Positions 7,293-40,827 of a stretch of 64,000 nucleotides of DNA are shown here, one piece after another (positions within the stretch are counted from its first letter, which is position 1; each line of letters starts with the position of its first letter). The position numbers and the translations under genes were made by a program. The notes under the pieces were generated by a model, which saw only the letters and a program-made list of their open reading frames with translations, ran no database searches and was not told where the DNA came from. This stretch comes from Syntrophomonadaceae bacterium (lineage in GTDB: Bacteria > Bacillota > PH28-bin88): the NCBI GenBank assembly GCA_018333865.1, contig JAGXSE010000023.1:1-64000 (forward strand), read 5' to 3'.

Positions 7293-7526
7293 GGCCTATG
7301 TTATTATTGGTAATGCCAATCAATTCTTCATGCAAAAAGCCGGCCACTGCGATAACGTTGCTTAGCTTATCACCATTTGTTTCAGGTAAGAGGAGCAGGA
7401 AGCAAGCCGGCAGCGAAGGGAAGGTGAGAGAATACCGCCATCTTATGCCAGTACGTGCTGGCAGATAATGTTTTTACTCACCTCGAAAAAACCAGTTTGA
7501 TTTATTCATGAGAGGAGTTGGCCTGC
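7293..7526 (+). promoter_or_regulatory. Long structured 5' leader, class unknown
   Basis: The leader contains several nested pairings. AGCCGGC at about 7339 can pair with the GCCGGC near 7417. GATAA and TTATC flank a loop inside this. GGTGAG (near 7421-7427) can pair with CTCACC (near 7479), enclosing the hairpin TGCCAG-tacgtg-CTGGCA. The segment ends in the AGAGGAG ribosome site at 7511-7517. I could not match it to FMN, cobalamin, molybdenum cofactor or c-di-GMP riboswitch consensus sequences. Pairings were found by eye, not by folding. Confidence 0.4.
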
Positions 7527-9596
7527 TTGAAAAAGAAAACCATGCGATTGGTGTTGTGTTTAGTCTTGTTGGTGGCGATGCTCGCAACCGGTATGCCGGC
7601 GATGGCAAGCCCCAGAGCAGCAGCAAGCGAAACCCTGATTATTGACGGCAAAACAGCTTCGGTGCCAGTAACAGTAGTTGGCAGAGCCAGTTTAGTGCAA
7701 GTGCGGGCACTGGCGGAAACCTTTGGGACAGTGCCCCAGTGGGACAATAAAGAGAAGATCGCCTCCTTTACCGCAGCTGGCAAGAACATTCAGGTCTTCG
7801 CCGGCCAGGGGCGAGTAGCGGTGGACGGCAAAGAAATAAAGGCGGCCACCAGAATATTGAGAGGTCGGGTGTTTGTTGAACTAGCGCCTATAAAAGAAGT
7901 GCTTGGCATTGGGAAGGCAACCAGGACGATAGCAAGCGGCACCTTTACCGGTGAAGCAAGAGGCTATGGCGGCATGCTGCGGGTAGAGATAAAAACCGCC
8001 GACAACAAAATTACGGCAGTAAGAGTAGTAGAGCAGCGTGAAACCGCCGGCATTGCAGACCCTGCCCTGACCAGGATCCCGCAGAGCATTGTCAGGCAGC
8101 AGAGTTTAGCAATTGATGCCGTCACCGGCGCTACCCTGACCAGCAGGGCCATCCTGGATGCGGCAGCCCAGGCTGTCACCAAGGCTAAAGGCAATGTCAG
8201 CGAGTGGCTAAGGCCAGTCGCGGCTGCGCCGGTGGCACCAGGTCAGCCGGCGGCTGTCAGAAAACAGACAGACGTGGTTGTAATCGGCGGCGGCGGGGCC
8301 GGTTTGGCGGCGGCAGTATCGGCGGCCGAGGCTGGAGCCAAGGTCATCCTCATCGAAAAAATGCCTATGCTGGGCGGCAATACTCTGAGAGCAACCGGCG
8401 GGATGCAAGCGGCCGGAACCAGATTCCAGACAGCTGCAGGCATTAATGATACCCCGGATATCCACTACGCAGACACAATGCGAGGTGGCGGAAATATAAA
8501 TAATCCCAGGTTAGTGCGGATAATGGTTGATAACGCGAATAATGCAATGGAGTGGCTTACATCATTAGGTGTCAGTCTTTCGCGAGTGTCAGTTTCGGGC
8601 GGATCAACCAACCTTCGCGGACATGGGCCAGCTGGCGGGTTTGCTGCCGGACCACCAATTGTACAGGCTTTAGAGAAGGAAGCCAGGAATAGGGGTATTA
8701 ATATCCTTCTCGATACTCGCGCTACGGAGATTATAGTCGATAGTTCCGGGCGTGCTGTTGGGGTTAGAGCTGCCAGCAAGGAGCTGGGTGATCTAACAAT
8801 TACGGCCCGGGCCGTGGTGCTAGCTGCCGGCGGATTTGGCGCCAATCTGGAAATGGTGGCTCAGTATAATCCCGCACTGCGGGGATTTGATACAAATAAT
8901 CATCCCGGGGCTACCGGTGATGGTATCAAATTAGCAACAGCAATTGGTGCGGCTACTATTCATATGGAACATATTCAGACCCATCCCACAGTAGTGCCTA
9001 AGACAGGCGTTCTGATTACAGAGAGAGTTCGGGGAGCTGGAGCCATACTGGTTAATCGCAGCGGTGTGCGATTCGTTGATGAGCTGCAGACTCGCGATGC
9101 AGTATCTAGGGCAATTCTGGAGCAAGAGGGAGATACGGCATTTCTGATTTTTGATCGCGGCTTGCGGGCTGAAGTGGGGGTTATTGAAGACTATGTCCGT
9201 CAAGGATTGGTGAGGGAAGGAAATACCCTGGAAGAGGTTGCAGCCAAAATAGGGTTGCCCGCCGGAAGGCTTACCACTACAATGCAAAGGTATAACGAAC
9301 TTGTAACAGCTGGAAGCGATGCAGATTTTGGAAAGCGGCACTTGTTGCGCCGGCTAGAAGTTGGTCCATTTTTTGCAATTGAAGTCGCTCCTGCAATTCA
9401 CCACACCATGGGCGGGGTAGTGATTAATGAGCAGACCCAGGTCATCGACCGGAACGGTAGGGTTATCCCAGGGCTTTTTGCAGCAGGGGAAGTGACCGGC
9501 GGGATCCACGGCAATAACAGACTAGGCGGCAATGCTGTGACAGATATCACTGTGTTTGGCAGAATCGCCGGCAAAAGCGCCGCCGATAGCAGATGA
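7527..9596 (+). CDS. Exported FMN/FAD flavoprotein reductase with stalk domain
   Basis: Predicted extracytoplasmic flavoprotein of the flavocytochrome c / fumarate-urocanate reductase family, 689 residues. Order: a Lys-rich signal peptide ending near ASPRA; a copper-amine-oxidase-N-like domain (about 35-125, with the DGK and VPVR/FVEL-type repeats typical of surface anchoring); an FMN-binding domain (about 135-215) with the flavinylation motif DAVTGAT where ApbE attaches FMN to Thr; then an FAD domain from GGGGAGLAAA near 251 to the HGNNRLGGNAVTD motif near the end. QTHPT and ERVRG near the active site match the family. No haem-binding CxxCH is present, so electrons must come through FMN. The TTG at 7527 has AGAGGAG nine bases upstream; the TTG at 7518 abuts that site. 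The electron acceptor is not predictable. Confidence 0.9.
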   Translation: MKKKTMRLVLCLVLLVAMLATGMPAMASPRAAASETLIIDGKTASVPVTVVGRASLVQVRALAETFGTVPQWDNKEKIASFTAAGKNIQVFAGQGRVAVDGKEIKAATRILRGRVFVELAPIKEVLGIGKATRTIASGTFTGEARGYGGMLRVEIKTADNKITAVRVVEQRETAGIADPALTRIPQSIVRQQSLAIDAVTGATLTSRAILDAAAQAVTKAKGNVSEWLRPVAAAPVAPGQPAAVRKQTDVVVIGGGGAGLAAAVSAAEAGAKVILIEKMPMLGGNTLRATGGMQAAGTRFQTAAGINDTPDIHYADTMRGGGNINNPRLVRIMVDNANNAMEWLTSLGVSLSRVSVSGGSTNLRGHGPAGGFAAGPPIVQALEKEARNRGINILLDTRATEIIVDSSGRAVGVRAASKELGDLTITARAVVLAAGGFGANLEMVAQYNPALRGFDTNNHPGATGDGIKLATAIGAATIHMEHIQTHPTVVPKTGVLITERVRGAGAILVNRSGVRFVDELQTRDAVSRAILEQEGDTAFLIFDRGLRAEVGVIEDYVRQGLVREGNTLEEVAAKIGLPAGRLTTTMQRYNELVTAGSDADFGKRHLLRRLEVGPFFAIEVAPAIHHTMGGVVINEQTQVIDRNGRVIPGLFAAGEVTGGIHGNNRLGGNAVTDITVFGRIAGKSAADSR

Positions 9597-18550: not shown

Positions 18551-18600
18551 TTGACAATGAAGAAGATAGCATATTAAAATGTAAATGATAATCATTATCA
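18551..18600 (+). promoter_or_regulatory. Fur-box promoter 1
   Basis: TTGACA (18551-18556), 18-bp spacer, TAAAAT (18575-18580), five bases, then TGATAATCATTATCA (18586-18600), an exact 7-1-7 Fur box. Iron-loaded Fur should block it at the start site. It precedes the chemoreceptor gene by about 380 nt. Confidence 0.8.
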
Positions 18601-18978: not shown

Positions 18979-20694
18979 ATGTTGATAAAATGGTTTTCTA
19001 ACTTAAAAATCTTCAATAAGGTCTTAGTTTTAACCGTTTTCCTGCTTATAATTATGTTCGGCATGGGGGTACGATCCATTATCTTCATGGACAAGTCGCA
19101 TCAAGAAATGGTGCAAATGCACCAGGAATATATGGTTCCGCTTAATCTGCTGGCCACAAGGCTGTCTCAGACCACCGCAAACGATCTTGATCTGGCTATA
19201 TATCTTTCTGTTGAAGACCCTGCGCGAATGCAGGATATAGAGAGTCGTATCCGCGGTCGGATGGATATAGCTAACAGGGCGTTAAATGCCTATAGAGAAA
19301 CCCATTTATCTGAAATAGAGCTTCAGTTGCTGGCAGAGCACGATGCTGCTGCGAGCACGTTTCGGGAAATACGGAATCAGATATTTCAGCTAGGCAAGGA
19401 GAACAAGCTGGAGGAGGCCCGTGCTCTCTACGCAAAAGCTTACCCCTATCGGGACAAGGTTGTTGAGGCTACTATCGAATTAATAAACTTAAAAGGGATT
19501 CTTGCCGAGGAAGCCATAGGAGAAAAGCGAACTGCCCACAACCAATCTCTAAGGGAATTCATTATTATCCTTGTCATTGCAAGTATTTTCGCCTTCGGCC
19601 TGGCCTTTTTCCTGGCCCGGACGATGAGCCGCCCCTTAAAGACCCTGGAAGGAGCCGCCGGGCAAGTAGCCGAAGGTGATTTAAGGGTTGAATGGGTCAT
19701 TCGGAGCAGGGATGAAATTGGCTCCCTTTCGGCATCTTTAACTAAGATGATTCAGAATCTGCGTCTGGTGGTACAGCAGGTCAATAAAACATCCTTCAAT
19801 GTGGCCGCTTCCGCGGAAGAGCTTACCGCCAGCACAGAACAAAGCGCCGCGGTCTCTGCCCAGCTTGCCCGTGCCGCCCAGGAAGTAGCCAGTGGGGCGG
19901 AACAGCAAAACAACAAGGTTCAGACCGTCATGGCAGCTATCCAGCGGGCTTCTGCCGCTACAGAGCAAATAGCAGCTACAGCCCAGGCGGTAACCATCTT
20001 TGCACAGGATACTAATCAGCAAGCACATCAAGGCAACAGGGCTATGGCCAAAGCAATGGCTGAAATGGAACGGATCAGCATTTCTGGCAAAGAAATGGCG
20101 GGAAGCATTAAGGAGCTTGGCAATCGTTCCAAGGATATCGGCCAAATTATTGATGTAATCAGCGGGATTTCCGACCAGACAAATTTATTGGCTTTAAACG
20201 CCGCCATCGAGGCCGCCAGGGCTGGAGACCATGGGCGTGGATTTGCGGTAGTAGCGGAAGAAGTGCGCAAGCTTGCTGAGCAATCCAGCAAAGCGGCTAA
20301 GGAGATTGTGATGCTGATCCGGCAGATCCAAGGAGAAACAGATAGGGTAATGCAGGCGATAGACGGCAACTTGCAGTTAGTAGAAAATGGCAATATTATT
20401 ATCGGCGATGGGGCAACGGCTTTTCAGCAAATCGAACAAGCTGTGGCAAGTGTTGCCAAACAACTGACAGGTGTGTACCACTCAACAGAGGGGTTGACAA
20501 AAGGAAACGAGGAGATACTGAAGGCTATCAACGAAATTAAAGAGGTAACTCAAAATGCAAGTGTGGCTAGCCAGGAGATGGCTGCAAGCACCCAAGAGCA
20601 AGCAGCATCTATTGAAGAGCTTGCGGCCTCGGCAGAGGAGCTGGCCAGACTAGGACATGAGCTGCAAAAAGTGGTTGCGACCTTTAAGCTGTAA
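18979..20694 (+). CDS. Methyl-accepting chemotaxis protein
   Basis: A 571-residue transmembrane chemoreceptor. TM1 is near residues 10-32, a four-helix-bundle-type periplasmic sensor follows, TM2 near 192-214, HAMP to about 265, then the cytoplasmic signalling domain with the conserved hairpin tip ([20 protein letters not shown], near 410) that binds CheA/CheW. The frame opens at a TTG at 18949; the ATG at 18979 has GGAGG five bases upstream and is preferred. Two Fur boxes lie upstream, so it may be made under iron limitation. The ligand is unknown. No che genes are in the window. Confidence 0.93.
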
Positions 20695-20786: not shown

Positions 20787-20835
20787 TTGACAATTTAAAT
20801 GGGCCACTATAAAATGAAACTGATAATCATTATCA
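20787..20835 (+). promoter_or_regulatory. Fur-box promoter 2
   Basis: TTGACA (20787-20792), 17-bp spacer, TAAAAT (20810-20815), five bases, then TGATAATCATTATCA (20821-20835). The elements and their order are the same as in promoter 1 and the flanks also match (AATAGCTTGACAAT in both), so one probably arose by duplication of the other. It drives the DUF2325 / HD-GYP / GGDEF operon. Confidence 0.85.
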
Positions 20836-20935
20836 TAAAAAGGTGATTTTGGTTATATTACTTAATTGATTGGGAACATAATCGGAATAATAAAATGAGA
20901 ATGTTTTTCAAAAACATCTGTAAGGAGTGACAAAC

Positions 20936-21229
20936 ATGACCGTTTTACTGGTTGGGGCGGACAGGCTTGGCAATATGCCAAAACAGCTGGAAGATTACGG
21001 CGCCAGTGAAATTATCCATTGGTCGGGACGCAAGGAAAGATGCAGAAACAGGGACATTCCGCAGCATGTCGATATGGTTCTTATCGTGCACGACTATGTC
21101 AATCATGCGCTGATGGACAATGTTAAGGGACAGGCCAAGCGCCGCCAGCTGCCCATTATCTTTGCCAAAAGAGGAGTAGCTGAATTAAAGCAGGCGCTTA
21201 GGAACGGAACGGGAAGGGATAGACTATGA
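20936..21229 (+). CDS. DUF2325 domain protein
   Basis: A 97-residue protein of the DUF2325 family: an N-terminal strand VLLVGADRLGN, the IIHWSGRK segment, VLIVHDYVNHALM and a closing PIIFAKRGV strand, a Rossmann-like small fold of unknown function. The ATG at 20936 has AAGGAG eight bases upstream; a GTG at 20927 lies inside the ribosome site. It is the first gene after Fur-box promoter 2, so iron control is likely. Its TGA stop is in frame with the reading frame that runs on into the HD-GYP gene, with no other stop between them. Confidence 0.8.
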   Translation: MTVLLVGADRLGNMPKQLEDYGASEIIHWSGRKERCRNRDIPQHVDMVLIVHDYVNHALMDNVKGQAKRRQLPIIFAKRGVAELKQALRNGTGRDRL

Positions 21230-21349
21230 AACATCTTTGCGACTGCAGGTGCAAAAGCCGTGCTGCCTCAGATCTGCAACAAGTTAACTGCAATTGCCGC
21301 TGCAAATCAATTGGTGGACTGTGTCAACAGGGCGAAGGAGAAATTACAG

Positions 21350-22066
21350 ATGCTGCAAAAAATTGTCAGGGTATTTCACCTCGGCACAAAAAAGCCGGGC
21401 GCCGGCTTAGCCGTGCACTGTGACGCGATTGAATCAAATCGTCAGGAATTCTTTCACGACATCATTGAGTGCCTTATTGCTGCGCTGGAAGCTAAGGATT
21501 CTTACACCTGCGGCCATTCCTCCAGGGTAGCGGATATATCCTTGGATTTAGCCATCGCGTTAGATCTAAAGGGCGCGGACCTTGAAAACGTACATATTGC
21601 CGCACATCTGCACGATATAGGGAAAATGGGGGTTTCAGAAAACATTTTAAACAAACCGGGAAAGCTTCTTTTTCATGAATGGGCGCAAATACAGGCTCAC
21701 CCGGCTATCGGCTATAATGTCCTGCGCAAATCAAGACTGCTTCATAAAATTGCTACAATCGTTCTCTACCACCATGAAAGATGGGATGGGACAGGTTATC
21801 CGGAAGGTGTGCAGGGAAACCAAATTCCTTTGGGTTCCAGGATCATTGCCGTGGCTGATGCCGTTGATGCCATGACGACGTACAGGCCATATAGAGAGCC
21901 CCTGTCTTGGAGGGATTGTCTGCAAGAGTTGCAGATAAACAAAGAAAAGCAATTTGACCCGCTAGTGGTGGAAGCTGCTTTAGAACTCTGGCAAAAATGG
22001 GCAGGCAGCCGGCATTATCAAGAAACCCCATGTGTAATGGAAGAGACGATAAAATCATGTTCCTGA
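21350..22066 (+). CDS. HD-GYP domain c-di-GMP phosphodiesterase
   Basis: A 238-residue protein consisting almost entirely of an HD-GYP domain. Metal-binding and signature residues are present: CGHSSRVA, AHLHDIGKMGV, QAHPAIG, YHHERWDGTGYPEG and ADAVDAMTT. HD-GYP enzymes hydrolyse c-di-GMP. A GTG start at 21260 is possible, but the ATG at 21350 has AAGGAG nine bases upstream. The 120 nt between the DUF2325 stop and this ATG stay open in the same frame. The gene is 33 nt before a diguanylate cyclase, so opposing c-di-GMP enzymes are co-expressed. Confidence 0.92.
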   Translation: MLQKIVRVFHLGTKKPGAGLAVHCDAIESNRQEFFHDIIECLIAALEAKDSYTCGHSSRVADISLDLAIALDLKGADLENVHIAAHLHDIGKMGVSENILNKPGKLLFHEWAQIQAHPAIGYNVLRKSRLLHKIATIVLYHHERWDGTGYPEGVQGNQIPLGSRIIAVADAVDAMTTYRPYREPLSWRDCLQELQINKEKQFDPLVVEAALELWQKWAGSRHYQETPCVMEETIKSCS

Positions 22067-22099
22067 AACGGGAAACAGAATCCATGTGAGGCGATGGGC

Positions 22100-23455
22100 A
22101 TGAGCGAAAACTTCAGAAAAGAGAAGAACAATATCTTTCTCAACTGCCTTGGTTCCAGAAAATTCTGGGGTATTCCCCTGTTAGTATGGGCGGTATTGGT
22201 TTTTGCTTCTTTGCTCTGGAATCTTTACTCTCTCAGGCAGAACACGCTTAATACCTTTAAGTACGAGGCTAAGACACTGGCTGGGGTAGCACTGTCAACC
22301 ATCATGTGGACCTCGCAACATGAGCGGGTATATGTCCCGCTTACTGAATGGATTCCGATGGAACCATTCTTCTCAGAGTTGCCTGAAAGAGAAGTTGTTA
22401 CAACCGACGGCTTAAGGCTTACGCAGGTATCCCATGCCTTAATCAGCCGCCAGGTAGCAGAACAGGCCTTGCTGCATGGATGGGAACAGAAATCTATCCG
22501 CATGACCAGCCTGCAGCCGTTAAATCCAGTCAATGCACCTGATGATTGGGAAAAAGACGCATTAAAGAGCTTTGAAAATGAACAAACAGAAAAATTTACC
22601 CTCAGTGGTGATGAATCTGGTCTTTCGCTAAAATATATGATGTCCCTCAGGGCAAAAGCGGAATGCCTGGATTGCCATGTTGACCACAGGGAAGGGGATC
22701 TCCTGGGTGGCCTGTCCGTAAGTGAACAGGCGACATCGCGCCTAGCCATGATTAAACCTCAGATTATCAGCATAATTGCTACTCACGCAGGTATTTTTGT
22801 GATTGTTGCTGCAGTGATCCTCTTTCTTTTGTCCTATATCAGGCGGCAGTGGCTTAATCTTGATCAGCTAAATGGCGAACAAAAAAAGATGCTGATCAAG
22901 CTTGCCGAAAGCGAGGCCAAGCTAAAAGAAATGGCCATTACAGACGAACTTACCGGACTAAAAAATCGGCGGGGGTTTTTACTCTTTGCCGCACAACAGA
23001 TAAAGGAAGCTAACCGCAATAAGGGAAGGATCTGGTTTATTTTCATTGATGTCGATGGCATGAAAGCAGTCAACGATATATACGGGCACAGCGAGGGGGA
23101 CAAAGCTTTAACAGCAACTGCAAACATCATCAAAAACACCTTCCGGGAGTCAGATGTTAGCGCGCGTATAGGTGGGGATGAATTTGTGGTCATGATCACA
23201 GGCACAACTGAGATTAATGGATGCGCTATTATTGAGCGTTTGCAGAAAAACGTGGATTTCTACAATAATGCTGCAAAATACCCCTATAGATTATCTTTAA
23301 GTGCAGGCATCGTTGATTACGATCCTGGCGAAAATCCCTGCAGCATTGAAGCCCTGCTAAAAAAAGCAGACGAATTAATGTACGAGAACAAACGGAGCAA
23401 AACCCATTGCCGCAACAACTGCAGCAAGGGTATATCCGCCATAGAACCAGCTTGA
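22100..23455 (+). CDS. Membrane haem-c sensor diguanylate cyclase
   Basis: A 451-residue inner-membrane protein. TM1 is near 22-42; an extracytoplasmic Tll0287-like (DUF3365) sensor domain follows with one c-type haem site, CLDCH (Cys189-His193); TM2 is near 215-238; a C-terminal GGDEF domain carries an intact GGDEF motif near 358 and should make c-di-GMP. The domain pairing implies that redox state or a gas ligand at the haem controls cyclase activity. Of two close ATGs the one at 22100 has GAGG eight bases upstream. It is the third gene of the Fur-box operon, opposite in activity to the HD-GYP protein. No I-site RxxD was verified. Confidence 0.9.
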   Translation: MSENFRKEKNNIFLNCLGSRKFWGIPLLVWAVLVFASLLWNLYSLRQNTLNTFKYEAKTLAGVALSTIMWTSQHERVYVPLTEWIPMEPFFSELPEREVVTTDGLRLTQVSHALISRQVAEQALLHGWEQKSIRMTSLQPLNPVNAPDDWEKDALKSFENEQTEKFTLSGDESGLSLKYMMSLRAKAECLDCHVDHREGDLLGGLSVSEQATSRLAMIKPQIISIIATHAGIFVIVAAVILFLLSYIRRQWLNLDQLNGEQKKMLIKLAESEAKLKEMAITDELTGLKNRRGFLLFAAQQIKEANRNKGRIWFIFIDVDGMKAVNDIYGHSEGDKALTATANIIKNTFRESDVSARIGGDEFVVMITGTTEINGCAIIERLQKNVDFYNNAAKYPYRLSLSAGIVDYDPGENPCSIEALLKKADELMYENKRSKTHCRNNCSKGISAIEPA

Positions 23456-23741
23456 GCTTTTCTGTCCGAAGTAGCGGATAAGAATTAATAAAATGACCAC
23501 AGTTCGCTTTGGTAATCAGCTTAATAATATAAATAGACATCCATGCCGCATATGACAGCGCCAGCAGAGGAAAGATAAATAGTAGTTATGTATTTTTTTT
23601 CTTAAAGGTCTAATTTGCTGGAAGGAAAATTGCGTTGGAGAACGAAATACTACATCAAGTAGAAAAAAAGGCTTTGCCTGGCCTTAGGGGGAGAGGCATC
23701 GCAAGGCTAGCTATCTAAAGTCTAGAATGGAGGTTAAAAAC

Positions 23742-24491
23742 TTGAAAAAAAGAATAATTGTTTTGTCCCTGTTAATAGCGGTTTTGGCGATGACGTTACT
23801 AGCTGGCTGCCAAAATGAGGCCAGAGTTTACAATAACGGGGAATTCACCGCCTTTTCTGACGCCACCGACCGGGGTTACATGGAAGTTACCCTCACTATC
23901 AATAACGACAAGATAACGGCAGCTAAGGTGCGTGGTTTTGACAGTCTGGGGTTGGAAAAACCTGATACTTACCGCCATCAGCCTTTCCTAACTGCTAAAG
24001 AAGAGCTTCCCAAACGCTTTGTAGCAAAAAATAGCTGGGACGTAGACCTGGTTACCGGTGCCACCACCTCTTCTAACCAATCGCGCATGGCTGCTTTGCG
24101 GGCCTTGCAAAAGGCACGCGTTACCCCAACTACAGCGGCGAAATTTTTTGACGGCACCTACATGGCAATTTCTGATCGCACTGAACGTGGTTGGGGGATA
24201 GTTTGGGTTACCATCGGTAACGACAAAATCACTAATGTCGTCATTCATGAGACAGCAGCGGTGAGAGATGCGGCTGGCGCAGTAGTGCCAGGGCAATTTG
24301 AGCGCAAAAACATCGATTCAGCGAATCCTGCTTTTTACGGTTTTCCTCCCTACCATGAGGCCAGGGTGGAACTGCCGAAACGCTTTGTAGCTGCTAACAG
24401 CGCTAAGATCGACGCTTTTACCGGCGCGACCGCCACTTCTAACAACGCCATGGCAGCTGTGGCACGCGCGTTGGAGATGGCCCGCCGTTAG
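23742..24491 (+). CDS. Lipoprotein with two FMN-binding domains
   Basis: A 249-residue surface lipoprotein. A signal peptide ends in the lipobox LLAGC. Two FMN-binding domains follow, each closing with a flavinylation motif: DLVTGATTSS (about residues 103-112) and DAFTGATATS (about 225-234). ApbE-type transferases attach FMN to the Thr of such motifs, giving an extracytoplasmic electron carrier. The TTG at 23742 has GGAGG eight bases upstream; the ATG at 23727 overlaps that site. Its leader (23456-23741) contains a hairpin near 23671-23707 (GCTTTGC with GCAAGGC). The same motif occurs in the exported reductase at 7527-9596, a plausible partner. Confidence 0.9.
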   Translation: MKKRIIVLSLLIAVLAMTLLAGCQNEARVYNNGEFTAFSDATDRGYMEVTLTINNDKITAAKVRGFDSLGLEKPDTYRHQPFLTAKEELPKRFVAKNSWDVDLVTGATTSSNQSRMAALRALQKARVTPTTAAKFFDGTYMAISDRTERGWGIVWVTIGNDKITNVVIHETAAVRDAAGAVVPGQFERKNIDSANPAFYGFPPYHEARVELPKRFVAANSAKIDAFTGATATSNNAMAAVARALEMARR

Positions 24492-25665: not shown

Positions 25666-25986
25666 ATGGGAGAATGGAAATACGTGTTGCCGTCAGGACA
25701 ACTGCCTGACAGCAAGGTTGTCGCGGTAAGAATCAACGGACAGAGTATTATGCTGGCCAGGGTAGAAGGAAGGGTATTCGCTCTGCGCAATGAATGTCCG
25801 CACCTGGGCTGCCGGCTGCATCGCGGCCGCCTGAATGGCTATTTGCTCCAATGCCCATGCCACGACTGGCAATTTGACCTCCGCTCCGGGGAGTTCACCC
25901 TAGCGCCGGAAATAAAAATCCCTGCCTTTTTGGTCAAGGAGGAAAACGGGGAAATATTGCTGAAAACGGGAGGAGAACTACCATGA
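25666..25986 (+). CDS. Rieske [2Fe-2S] ferredoxin-like protein
   Basis: A 106-residue soluble Rieske protein. Cluster ligands: ECPHLGC (Cys-x-His) and QCPCHDW (Cys-x-x-His). There is no membrane anchor and no oxygenase domain, so it resembles small electron-carrier Rieske ferredoxins such as NirD or BphF. AGGAG precedes the ATG. It overlaps the next gene by four bases, so it forms an operon with a glutaredoxin-like protein and an FTR catalytic subunit. It could deliver electrons to the latter; this is inferred from context. The 214 nt upstream hold no clear consensus promoter. Confidence 0.92.
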   Translation: MGEWKYVLPSGQLPDSKVVAVRINGQSIMLARVEGRVFALRNECPHLGCRLHRGRLNGYLLQCPCHDWQFDLRSGEFTLAPEIKIPAFLVKEENGEILLKTGGELP

Positions 25987-26225
25987 AAGCATTCTTGTAT
26001 GCTTTAAGCACCTGTTTCCATTGTCAGCGCACAAAAAAATGGCTGAATGAACACCAGATCGCTTACGATTATGTTGATGTAGACCTTGCCGAAGAAGAAG
26101 AAAAAAAACGCTTAATCCAGGAAGTCCAAACGATGACCGGCTCGACGCAATTTCCGGTGTTAAAAGTCGGCAAACAGCACACGGTCGGCTTTAACGAGGA
26201 ACGCATCCGGAAGTTGTTGGGGTAG
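25983..26225 (+). CDS. Glutaredoxin-like protein
   Basis: An 80-residue thioredoxin-fold protein with redox motif CFHC at residues 11-14, the FPVLKVG cis-Pro segment and GFNEERI near the end, matching NrdH/glutaredoxin-like proteins of anaerobes. It starts at an ATGA overlap with the Rieske gene and ends 7 nt before the FTR gene. Likely an electron carrier or thiol reductase partner within this operon. Confidence 0.92.
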   Translation: MKAFLYALSTCFHCQRTKKWLNEHQIAYDYVDVDLAEEEEKKRLIQEVQTMTGSTQFPVLKVGKQHTVGFNEERIRKLLG

Positions 26226-26232
26226 GCTACAC

Positions 26233-26586
26233 ATGCAAAAAACCAACCGTAAAGAGTTTATCCGCACCTGGTTTGCCGCCGTGGTGGATAAACTTGGTTA
26301 CAAGTTTACACCTGATGTTGAAATGGCTGAGTTCCTCCTGGAACAGATTGTGCTACTGGAACAGAGGTTCGGCAGCCCCTACTGCCCCTGTCAGGCCCTG
26401 ACCGGGAACAGGGCAGACGACATGAAAATCGTCTGTCCGTGCATCCCCTATCACCGCAGGCATTTCGACTATATGAAGCAATGCTGGTGCGGGCTTTATG
26501 TTCATAAAGACATTGTTGACCCGTCTATGTTGCGCCAGATTCCGGCTGCAGAAGTGCCTGCAGTTAAATTAAAAAGCCAAGCCTAA
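26233..26586 (+). CDS. Ferredoxin:thioredoxin reductase catalytic subunit
   Basis: A 117-residue FTR beta subunit. All Cys motifs are visible: CPCQ, CPCIPYH and CWCGLYV, which hold the [4Fe-4S] cluster and the active disulfide. The enzyme passes single electrons from ferredoxin to a dithiol carrier. Stand-alone catalytic subunits without the variable subunit are common in anaerobes. Here the probable thiol partner is encoded immediately upstream, so the operon looks like a dedicated Rieske/ferredoxin-to-dithiol route. Confidence 0.92.
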   Translation: MQKTNRKEFIRTWFAAVVDKLGYKFTPDVEMAEFLLEQIVLLEQRFGSPYCPCQALTGNRADDMKIVCPCIPYHRRHFDYMKQCWCGLYVHKDIVDPSMLRQIPAAEVPAVKLKSQA

Positions 26587-32114: not shown

Positions 32115-32560
32115 AAGCTACCCTCCTTGCAAGCCTTTTCTTAGCTTTCACAATTAATATACTCACTTACTTGGGCATGACCAGAATAGATTGTGTAAGA
32201 ACCAGCGTAATTATTACTTAATTTTTTTTGCTTGCAAGCATAGGAGAAGATGTTCTAGTTTTAAACCATTTGTCCTTTTGGTAATTACTTCATGGGTGAG
32301 AAGGGGACAGGGGGTGTGCCACGAGGCGCACTTTAAGATAGAGTGTGTGAACTATACAGGAGATGGGGGTAGGCCCCCCGAAGCCGGCTTGCAGGAGCAG
32401 GCTTCAAACCACCTTAAGCTGACCTGGTAAAGAGCCTTGGTAGTGAGCGTTAAGGAAAAGGCAGGCAGGATTAAACCTGTCAGGTAAGAGATAGGGAGAC
32501 GAGCGCAAGCGATCCGCCGTTTAAAGCGAGCGGCAGGAGGCAAAATGACTAATTTGGCCA
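32115..32560. other. Intergenic stretch without recognised gene
   Basis: I see no convincing gene in these 446 nt. A 79-codon frame (32191-32430) has no ribosome site or family resemblance. The segment is less AT-rich towards 32560 and contains the GGCAGGCAGGATTAAACCTG hairpin-like stretch near 32460. Confidence 0.5.
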
Positions 32561-40496: not shown

Positions 40497-40544
40497 TTAC
40501 CATCATCCTCCATATCGCCTCCTTCCCTCGAAGGTAGACAAACT

Positions 40545-40735
40545 CCGCTGCAGGCAGGTCTCCTGGCTACCGGATCAGCCTACTTCCCAGCCTTCCCGGA
40601 AATCTAAGCTCCAGTGGCCATTGGGTTTCGTTACCGGATACAGTGGCGGGACCGCGCCTTCGGCCGTTATCTTTCCCGGCCTGGGACTTCCCTATTCTCC
40701 CCCATCTGAGGGGGCACCTGCAGGGCTTGAATACA
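40545..40735 (-). promoter_or_regulatory. Cobalamin (AdoCbl) riboswitch
   Basis: On the minus strand the conserved elements appear in order: GCACCTGCAG region and CCCCCTC/GGGGGAG stem, GGGAAGTCC, CGGTCCCGCCACTGTATCCGG (core GCCACTGT), GGGAAGGCTGGGAAGTAGG and the B12 box AGCCAGGAGACCTGCC (plus positions 40553-40568). It controls the cblT-cblS-like operon. Confidence 0.95.
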
Positions 40736-40827
40736 ATTTTTAACTTTGTCATGTTTTTTTCTATGTAGAAACAAAAAATCCTGCCTAGTGTAAAAAAAGA
40801 CAACAATTAATTTTTTTAAGCATCAGG

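Follow-up and report, generated by a model that had tools for sequence, protein, structure and literature searches.

We conclude that the conserved unit at this locus, as judged from gene neighborhoods, is a pair of genes encoding a DUF2325 protein and a short HD-GYP phosphodiesterase, usually located in or beside Feo/Fur loci. In the window (the whole stretch of 64,000 nucleotides analyzed, part of contig C23 of a 3.2-Mb genome), the gene after this pair encodes a membrane diguanylate cyclase with a predicted heme-c sensor, which by the same comparison is a rare addition and the least conserved part of the module. The original prediction had taken all three genes as the unit, and we consider that the emphasis is better moved from the heme sensor to the link between DUF2325, HD-GYP, and iron. 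The reading that we favor, and hold to be moderately probable, is that of a Fur-repressed c-di-GMP module for iron starvation, in which a chemoreceptor, DUF2325, the phosphodiesterase, and the cyclase would be induced together, the phosphodiesterase would be limited by metal, and the cyclase would be gated by heme.

The locus is organized on the plus strand as a strong promoter, Fur box, DUF2325, HD-GYP, and membrane GGDEF protein (Table 1). Pfam matches and the position of the CLDCH motif bear out the domain assignments made at the outset (DUF2325, HD-GYP, and a GGDEF protein with an extracytoplasmic CLDCH). The Fur box at the promoter is one of only two perfect copies within the 64 kb, where matches to the Fur-box 13-mer number 9 against 1.34 expected. 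A second, weaker box lies at about the site of the DUF2325 Fur box in relatives, in which TGAGAATGATTTTCA stands 31 to 41 nt before the gene (L053 and L054). The genome encodes four Fur-family proteins, and together with the promoter box these make the predicted Fur control of the operon well founded at the level of sequence. The promoter itself, however, is upstream of position 20936, where the operon had been said to begin. No terminator-like site was found on the plus strand between the DUF2325, HD-GYP, and cyclase genes, and the gene layout makes their cotranscription likely.

Table 1. Features of the operon, its surroundings, and the rest of the window
Feature	Position	Strand	Details
Methyl-accepting chemotaxis protein (MCP) promoter TTGACA-18-TAAAAT with perfect Fur box	hexamers 18551-18580, box 18586-18600	+	Fur promoter
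MCP (4HB sensor, HAMP)	18979-20694	+	PF12729, PF00672, PF00015
Sigma-70-type promoter TTGACA-17 nt-TAAAAT	20787-20815	+	11/12 consensus matches
Perfect Fur box TGATAATCATTATCA	20821-20835	.	15/15; 6 nt behind the -10 hexamer
Weaker second Fur-like box TGAGAATGTTTTTCA	20896-20910	.	12/15
DUF2325 protein, 97 aa	20936-21229	+	starts at ATG 20936; PF10087, 57 bits (cutoff 33.6)
Possible Cys-rich ORF MKHLCDCRCK...CNCRCK, 65 aa	21226-21423	+	doubtful status
Stand-alone HD-GYP phosphodiesterase, 238 aa	21350-22066	+	PF13487, 125 bits
Membrane diguanylate cyclase, TM - sCache_heme (Tll0287-like) - TM - GGDEF, 453 aa	22094-23455	+	PF00990 GGDEF, 125 bits; PF11845 Tll0287-like, 53.3 bits (cutoff 24.1)
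CLDCH heme-c attachment motif	22664-22678	+	residues 191-195, between two hydrophobic segments
Lipoprotein-like gene with two FMN_bind domains	23727-24491		just downstream of the operon
Another FMN_bind flavoprotein	7518-9596
Rieske protein, glutaredoxin, ferredoxin-thioredoxin reductase catalytic chain	25666-26586		in a row
Group II intron RNA match	32365-32485		Rfam RF01999, 115 bits
Cobalamin riboswitch	40536-40736	-	Rfam RF00174, 105 bits

The chemoreceptor gene upstream has a promoter with hexamers identical to those of the operon promoter, the same Fur box, and the same 6-nt offset, the spacers being 18 and 17 nt, respectively. It is therefore probably a member of the same Fur regulon, and a single response to iron starvation probably includes both the receptor and the c-di-GMP enzymes. 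The leader of the receptor gene is nearly 400 nt long. A small open reading frame rich in cysteine codons overlaps the end of DUF2325 (ATGA) and has a plausible ribosome-binding site. It has no Pfam or NCBIfam match, and the segment overlapping HD-GYP has a frame echo in one related genome (G209), where it is interrupted by a stop. We rejected it as an iron-binding component because its Cys-rich part is not conserved, having no relative in any locus compared.

The tie to iron genes extends well beyond the window. A search with its HD-GYP protein returned, as top matches, mostly short proteins of ~200 to 240 amino acids, and in a tree of 68 sequences, 29 short stand-alone HD-GYPs, including that of the window, form a single clade (support, 100/96). 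A gene for FeoA/FeoB, Fur, DUF2325, or flavodoxin (labels checked with Pfam) is next door in 24 of the 29 clade members, ~9 of which come from one family (f14) of an unevenly sampled taxonomy, and in 2 of the 39 sequences outside the clade, which are next-best matches and not a random draw (Fisher p, 2e-11). When Feo and Fur alone are counted, the clade retains 19/29. Its usual gene order, found in several families, is FeoA-FeoA-FeoB-DUF2325-HD-GYP or FeoA-FeoA-FeoB-HD-GYP. The two iron-linked HD-GYPs from outside the clade (at L043 and L034) are both directly behind DUF2325, an apparent case of independent recruitment of unrelated HD-GYPs to this protein. At L034 (7954-10442), DUF2325 is followed by a PAS-GAF-GGDEF-HD-GYP fusion, and at L043 (7713-8765) by a Feo-linked HD-GYP.

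The neighborhood search proposed with the original prediction, for DUF2325 together with HD-GYP, was strongly positive. Among 398 sampled genomes of the phylum, 45 encode a DUF2325 protein resembling that of the window, and in 12 of these it is immediately followed by an HD-GYP gene in the same orientation, whereas ~0.2 to 0.4 would be expected by chance (Poisson p, about 1e-14). The protein has its closest named carriers in Dethiobacter and related assemblies of Bacillota, with 65 to 89% identity between the window protein and its Dethiobacteria-type relatives. Fur boxes of at least 13/15 occur upstream of 19 of 64 DUF2325 genes (0.11 expected from shuffles), and the partners vary, including an FTR1 iron permease cluster (G001), ABC uptake genes, a methyltransferase, and cysteine synthase. 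Given these varied partners and Fur boxes of its own, DUF2325 of the window type appears to be foremost a Fur-regulon protein. In a genome of the same family (L004:7024-8640), DUF2325 is the first gene of an FTR1 iron permease cluster, in which a P19-like lipoprotein and a membrane protein resembling DUF2318 are also encoded by our own reading of the sequence.

It could then be argued that DUF2325 is simply a Fur-regulon protein for iron stress, concerned with metal or heme handling, and that the c-di-GMP genes use its promoter with no functional coupling to it. Such coincidental coregulation would fit the wide variation of DUF2325 neighbors, the occurrence of Fur boxes upstream of DUF2325 genes that have no HD-GYP nearby, and the setting of Cj1384 of Campylobacter jejuni, a DUF2325 protein that is encoded with katA and controlled by PerR (PMC9426514). 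We nevertheless consider it somewhat unlikely, as DUF2325 is immediately upstream of HD-GYP in 12/45 genomes, the HD-GYP of at least two such pairs does not belong to the main clade, and the clade is linked to Feo/Fur even without DUF2325 (L130, L133, L135, and L137-L139). Cj1384 resembles the window protein in its DUF2325 domain and in belonging to a metal/oxidative-stress regulon; it differs in its PerR control, its place beside katA, and its seven cysteines, compared to one in the window protein.

The earlier suggestion that DUF2325 may be a third component of the system holds in part. By neighborhood it is a real partner of HD-GYP, but as mainly a Fur-regulon gene with many partners it does not have to belong to c-di-GMP signaling or act with HD-GYP. 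Its role is probably that of a partner or metal-handling protein, exerted either on the iron side or toward HD-GYP. We rejected the fold as a clue to function: the AlphaFold2 model (pLDDT, 83) is a small alpha/beta fold, a sequence search against the PDB gave no match, and the structural matches were weak (Foldseek best E, 0.007; VIA-align best Z, 7.7) and of mixed kinds, spanning Rossmann, receiver, and BRCT-like folds. The model thus shows a common alpha/beta arrangement and no more.

The phosphodiesterase has no sensor domain. Its most likely start is ATG 21350, which is preceded by a Shine-Dalgarno sequence and matches the start of a relative from UBA993 (L055); alignment with the latter ruled out GTG 21260. 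When aligned to PmGH (4mcw) and V-cGAP3 (5z7c), it has all ligands of the two-metal site (H...HD...H...HH...D), the catalytic lysine, and the GYP motif (within HHERWDGTGYP), and these seven shared ligands, the lysine, and GYP do not vary in any of the 29 clade members. Where PmGH has its third-metal ligand, E185, the window protein has Tyr and 29/29 members have Tyr or Phe, and the mark of the trinuclear PmGH type (Glu/Asp at this position, E/D-T-G) is absent from the window protein and from 29/29. This residue places the enzyme in the Y/F subfamily (PMC4159591), which is thought to be binuclear (PMC4159591); HD-GYPs are reported to be stimulated by Fe and Mn (PMC8177086). Although it shares the ligands, lysine, GYP, and Tyr at the E185 position with Y/F enzymes (PMC4159591, PMC8177086), the window type is unlike them in being a sensor-less stand-alone protein of ~200 to 240 amino acids with a genomic tie to Feo/Fur/DUF2325.

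These properties also bear on whether the clade serves ferrous uptake itself, its target being Feo (or another cyclic dinucleotide) instead of general c-di-GMP outputs and its metal site serving as an iron gauge. The Feo-first gene order in several families, the missing sensor domain, and an Fe/Mn-dependent active site (PMC8177086) would all suit such an accessory. We think it quite unlikely, given that the HD-GYPs of the window, G165, and G209 have a cyclase instead of feoB as their partner, and that the canonical GYP residues point to c-di-GMP chemistry of the ordinary kind. The tie to Feo operons (PMC8749426) is that relatives place the DUF2325-HD-GYP pair after FeoA-FeoA-FeoB, whereas profile searches found neither feoA nor feoB beside the window operon; three FeoB_C matches are elsewhere in the genome, with feoB on other contigs. 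A word search of the Feo survey (PMC8749426) gave no mention of HD-domain or DUF proteins, and our literature search for HD-GYP with feo or the Fur regulon found no matching report. Each protein family is already known; within the literature checked, the link between DUF2325, HD-GYP, and iron is new, and so is that of the clade.

The cyclase appears to be catalytically competent. The ARIGGDEF signature, the RxxD I-site, and the metal-binding Asp and guanine-contacting Asn/Asp (DVDGMK..VND..EGD and RESDVSARIGGDEF) are present in the translation, giving no sign of a dead enzyme; loss of catalytic GGDEF residues, which would have counted against the original prediction, was looked for, and the residues are intact. 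With the catalytic motifs of HD-GYP intact as well, the prediction of opposed c-di-GMP enzymes stands on the motifs of both.

The sensor part resembles sCache_heme (DUF3365/Tll0287, PF11845; PMC12889525) in having an extracytoplasmic Cache-type CXXCH domain fused to a signaling output, and its match to Tll0287 (5b82) is weak and lies around the heme site. A single-sequence structure model of the sensor cyclase gave no usable fold (pLDDT, 46). Covalent heme is feasible for this organism: genes resembling those for CcmE, CcmF, CcmA, CcmB, and CcmC (System I heme-c maturation) are present on C2, and a second CXXCH-bearing sCache_heme protein is encoded in the genome. No recognizable gene for ResB (System II) was found in the genome, an objection that we dismissed because System I, represented by CcmF, CcmC, and CcmE, has no need of ResB. 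The postulated heme-c site is therefore credible, with its attachment motif intact and maturation machinery in the genome. Signaling-type sCache_heme proteins without an axial Cys are reported to bind NO stably and to form no stable O2 complex (preprint, PMC12889525). The window sensor has no Cys beyond CLDCH and in this is like the NO-binding signaling type (PMC12889525); the published work on the family points to NO rather than O2 as the ligand. Unlike the described family (PMC12889525), the window protein is from Bacillota, where the family is reported to be rare, its gene is in a Fur operon, and its nearest intact relative lacks CXXCH.

That relative, in G165, is 53% identical over the sensor part, and it raises the alternative that the cyclase is a redox-type or heme-free Cache receptor and no gas sensor, with CLDCH as a relic. 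We regard this as unlikely, since CXXCH is intact both in the window and in a Thermincola homologue (L159; ECLQCH) and the genome has the ccm operon and the second sCache_heme protein noted above. The motif, kept in Thermincola and lost in G165, suggests that heme is an intact but evolutionarily loose feature here. In the G165 cyclase (L131:98-1396), GGDEF is intact and CXXCH is lost; the motif is reported to be about 99% conserved in the family. Only the window and G165 (L131), among the sampled genomes, have a clade HD-GYP followed by a Tll0287-type cyclase with both intact, and in G165 the two genes are behind flavodoxin and a 14/15 Fur box. In G209 (L127:7323-7754), the cyclase behind HD-GYP is a pseudogene, a GGDEF fragment with a stop, and the HD-GYP retains a 12/15 Fur box. 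Across these loci, HD-GYP, to judge from the boxes and neighbors, stays under iron control while its partners come and go.

For the favored Fur-repressed module, we propose the following mechanism. The core would be DUF2325 and the short stand-alone HD-GYP with a binuclear, iron-type metal site. In this Dethiobacter-related host, the pair lies away from feoAB, with the cyclase after it and the chemoreceptor, under a matching Fur promoter of its own, ahead. When iron is short, Fur would leave its boxes and the receptor, DUF2325, phosphodiesterase, and cyclase would be made together. The activity of the phosphodiesterase would be limited by how fully its Fe/Mn site is loaded, so that this enzyme would also read the metal pool. 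The cyclase would be gated from outside by the ligation or redox state of heme c, for which NO is the type of ligand with the best support. The balance of the two enzymes would set c-di-GMP during iron shortage and, as we propose, motility or attachment. In Vibrio cholerae, Fur directly regulates GGDEF and EAL genes (cdgD and vieSAB; PMC7641913). Those genes are scattered, and the effect is reported to be iron independent (PMC7641913), whereas in the window the phosphodiesterase, cyclase, and DUF2325 are in one predicted operon and the phosphodiesterase clade is linked to iron uptake.

A bolder possibility, which we hold as speculative and on the doubtful side, is that the sensor-less HD-GYPs are a family not described before and, with DUF2325, a standard accessory of Feo/Fur uptake in many Bacillota, with the metal site as an iron gauge reporting to c-di-GMP and heme-c cyclases added as opposing, outward-facing inputs. 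In many families of Bacillota, the comparative data connect iron uptake with a phosphodiesterase of second-messenger signaling, and DUF2325 gains a setting that can be tested, that of iron starvation with HD-GYP as a partner. In the organism studied here, iron supply (through Fur), metal loading (through HD-GYP), and an outer heme signal (through sCache_heme) would meet in one c-di-GMP decision, making the locus a test case for HD-GYP enzymes as iron gauges.
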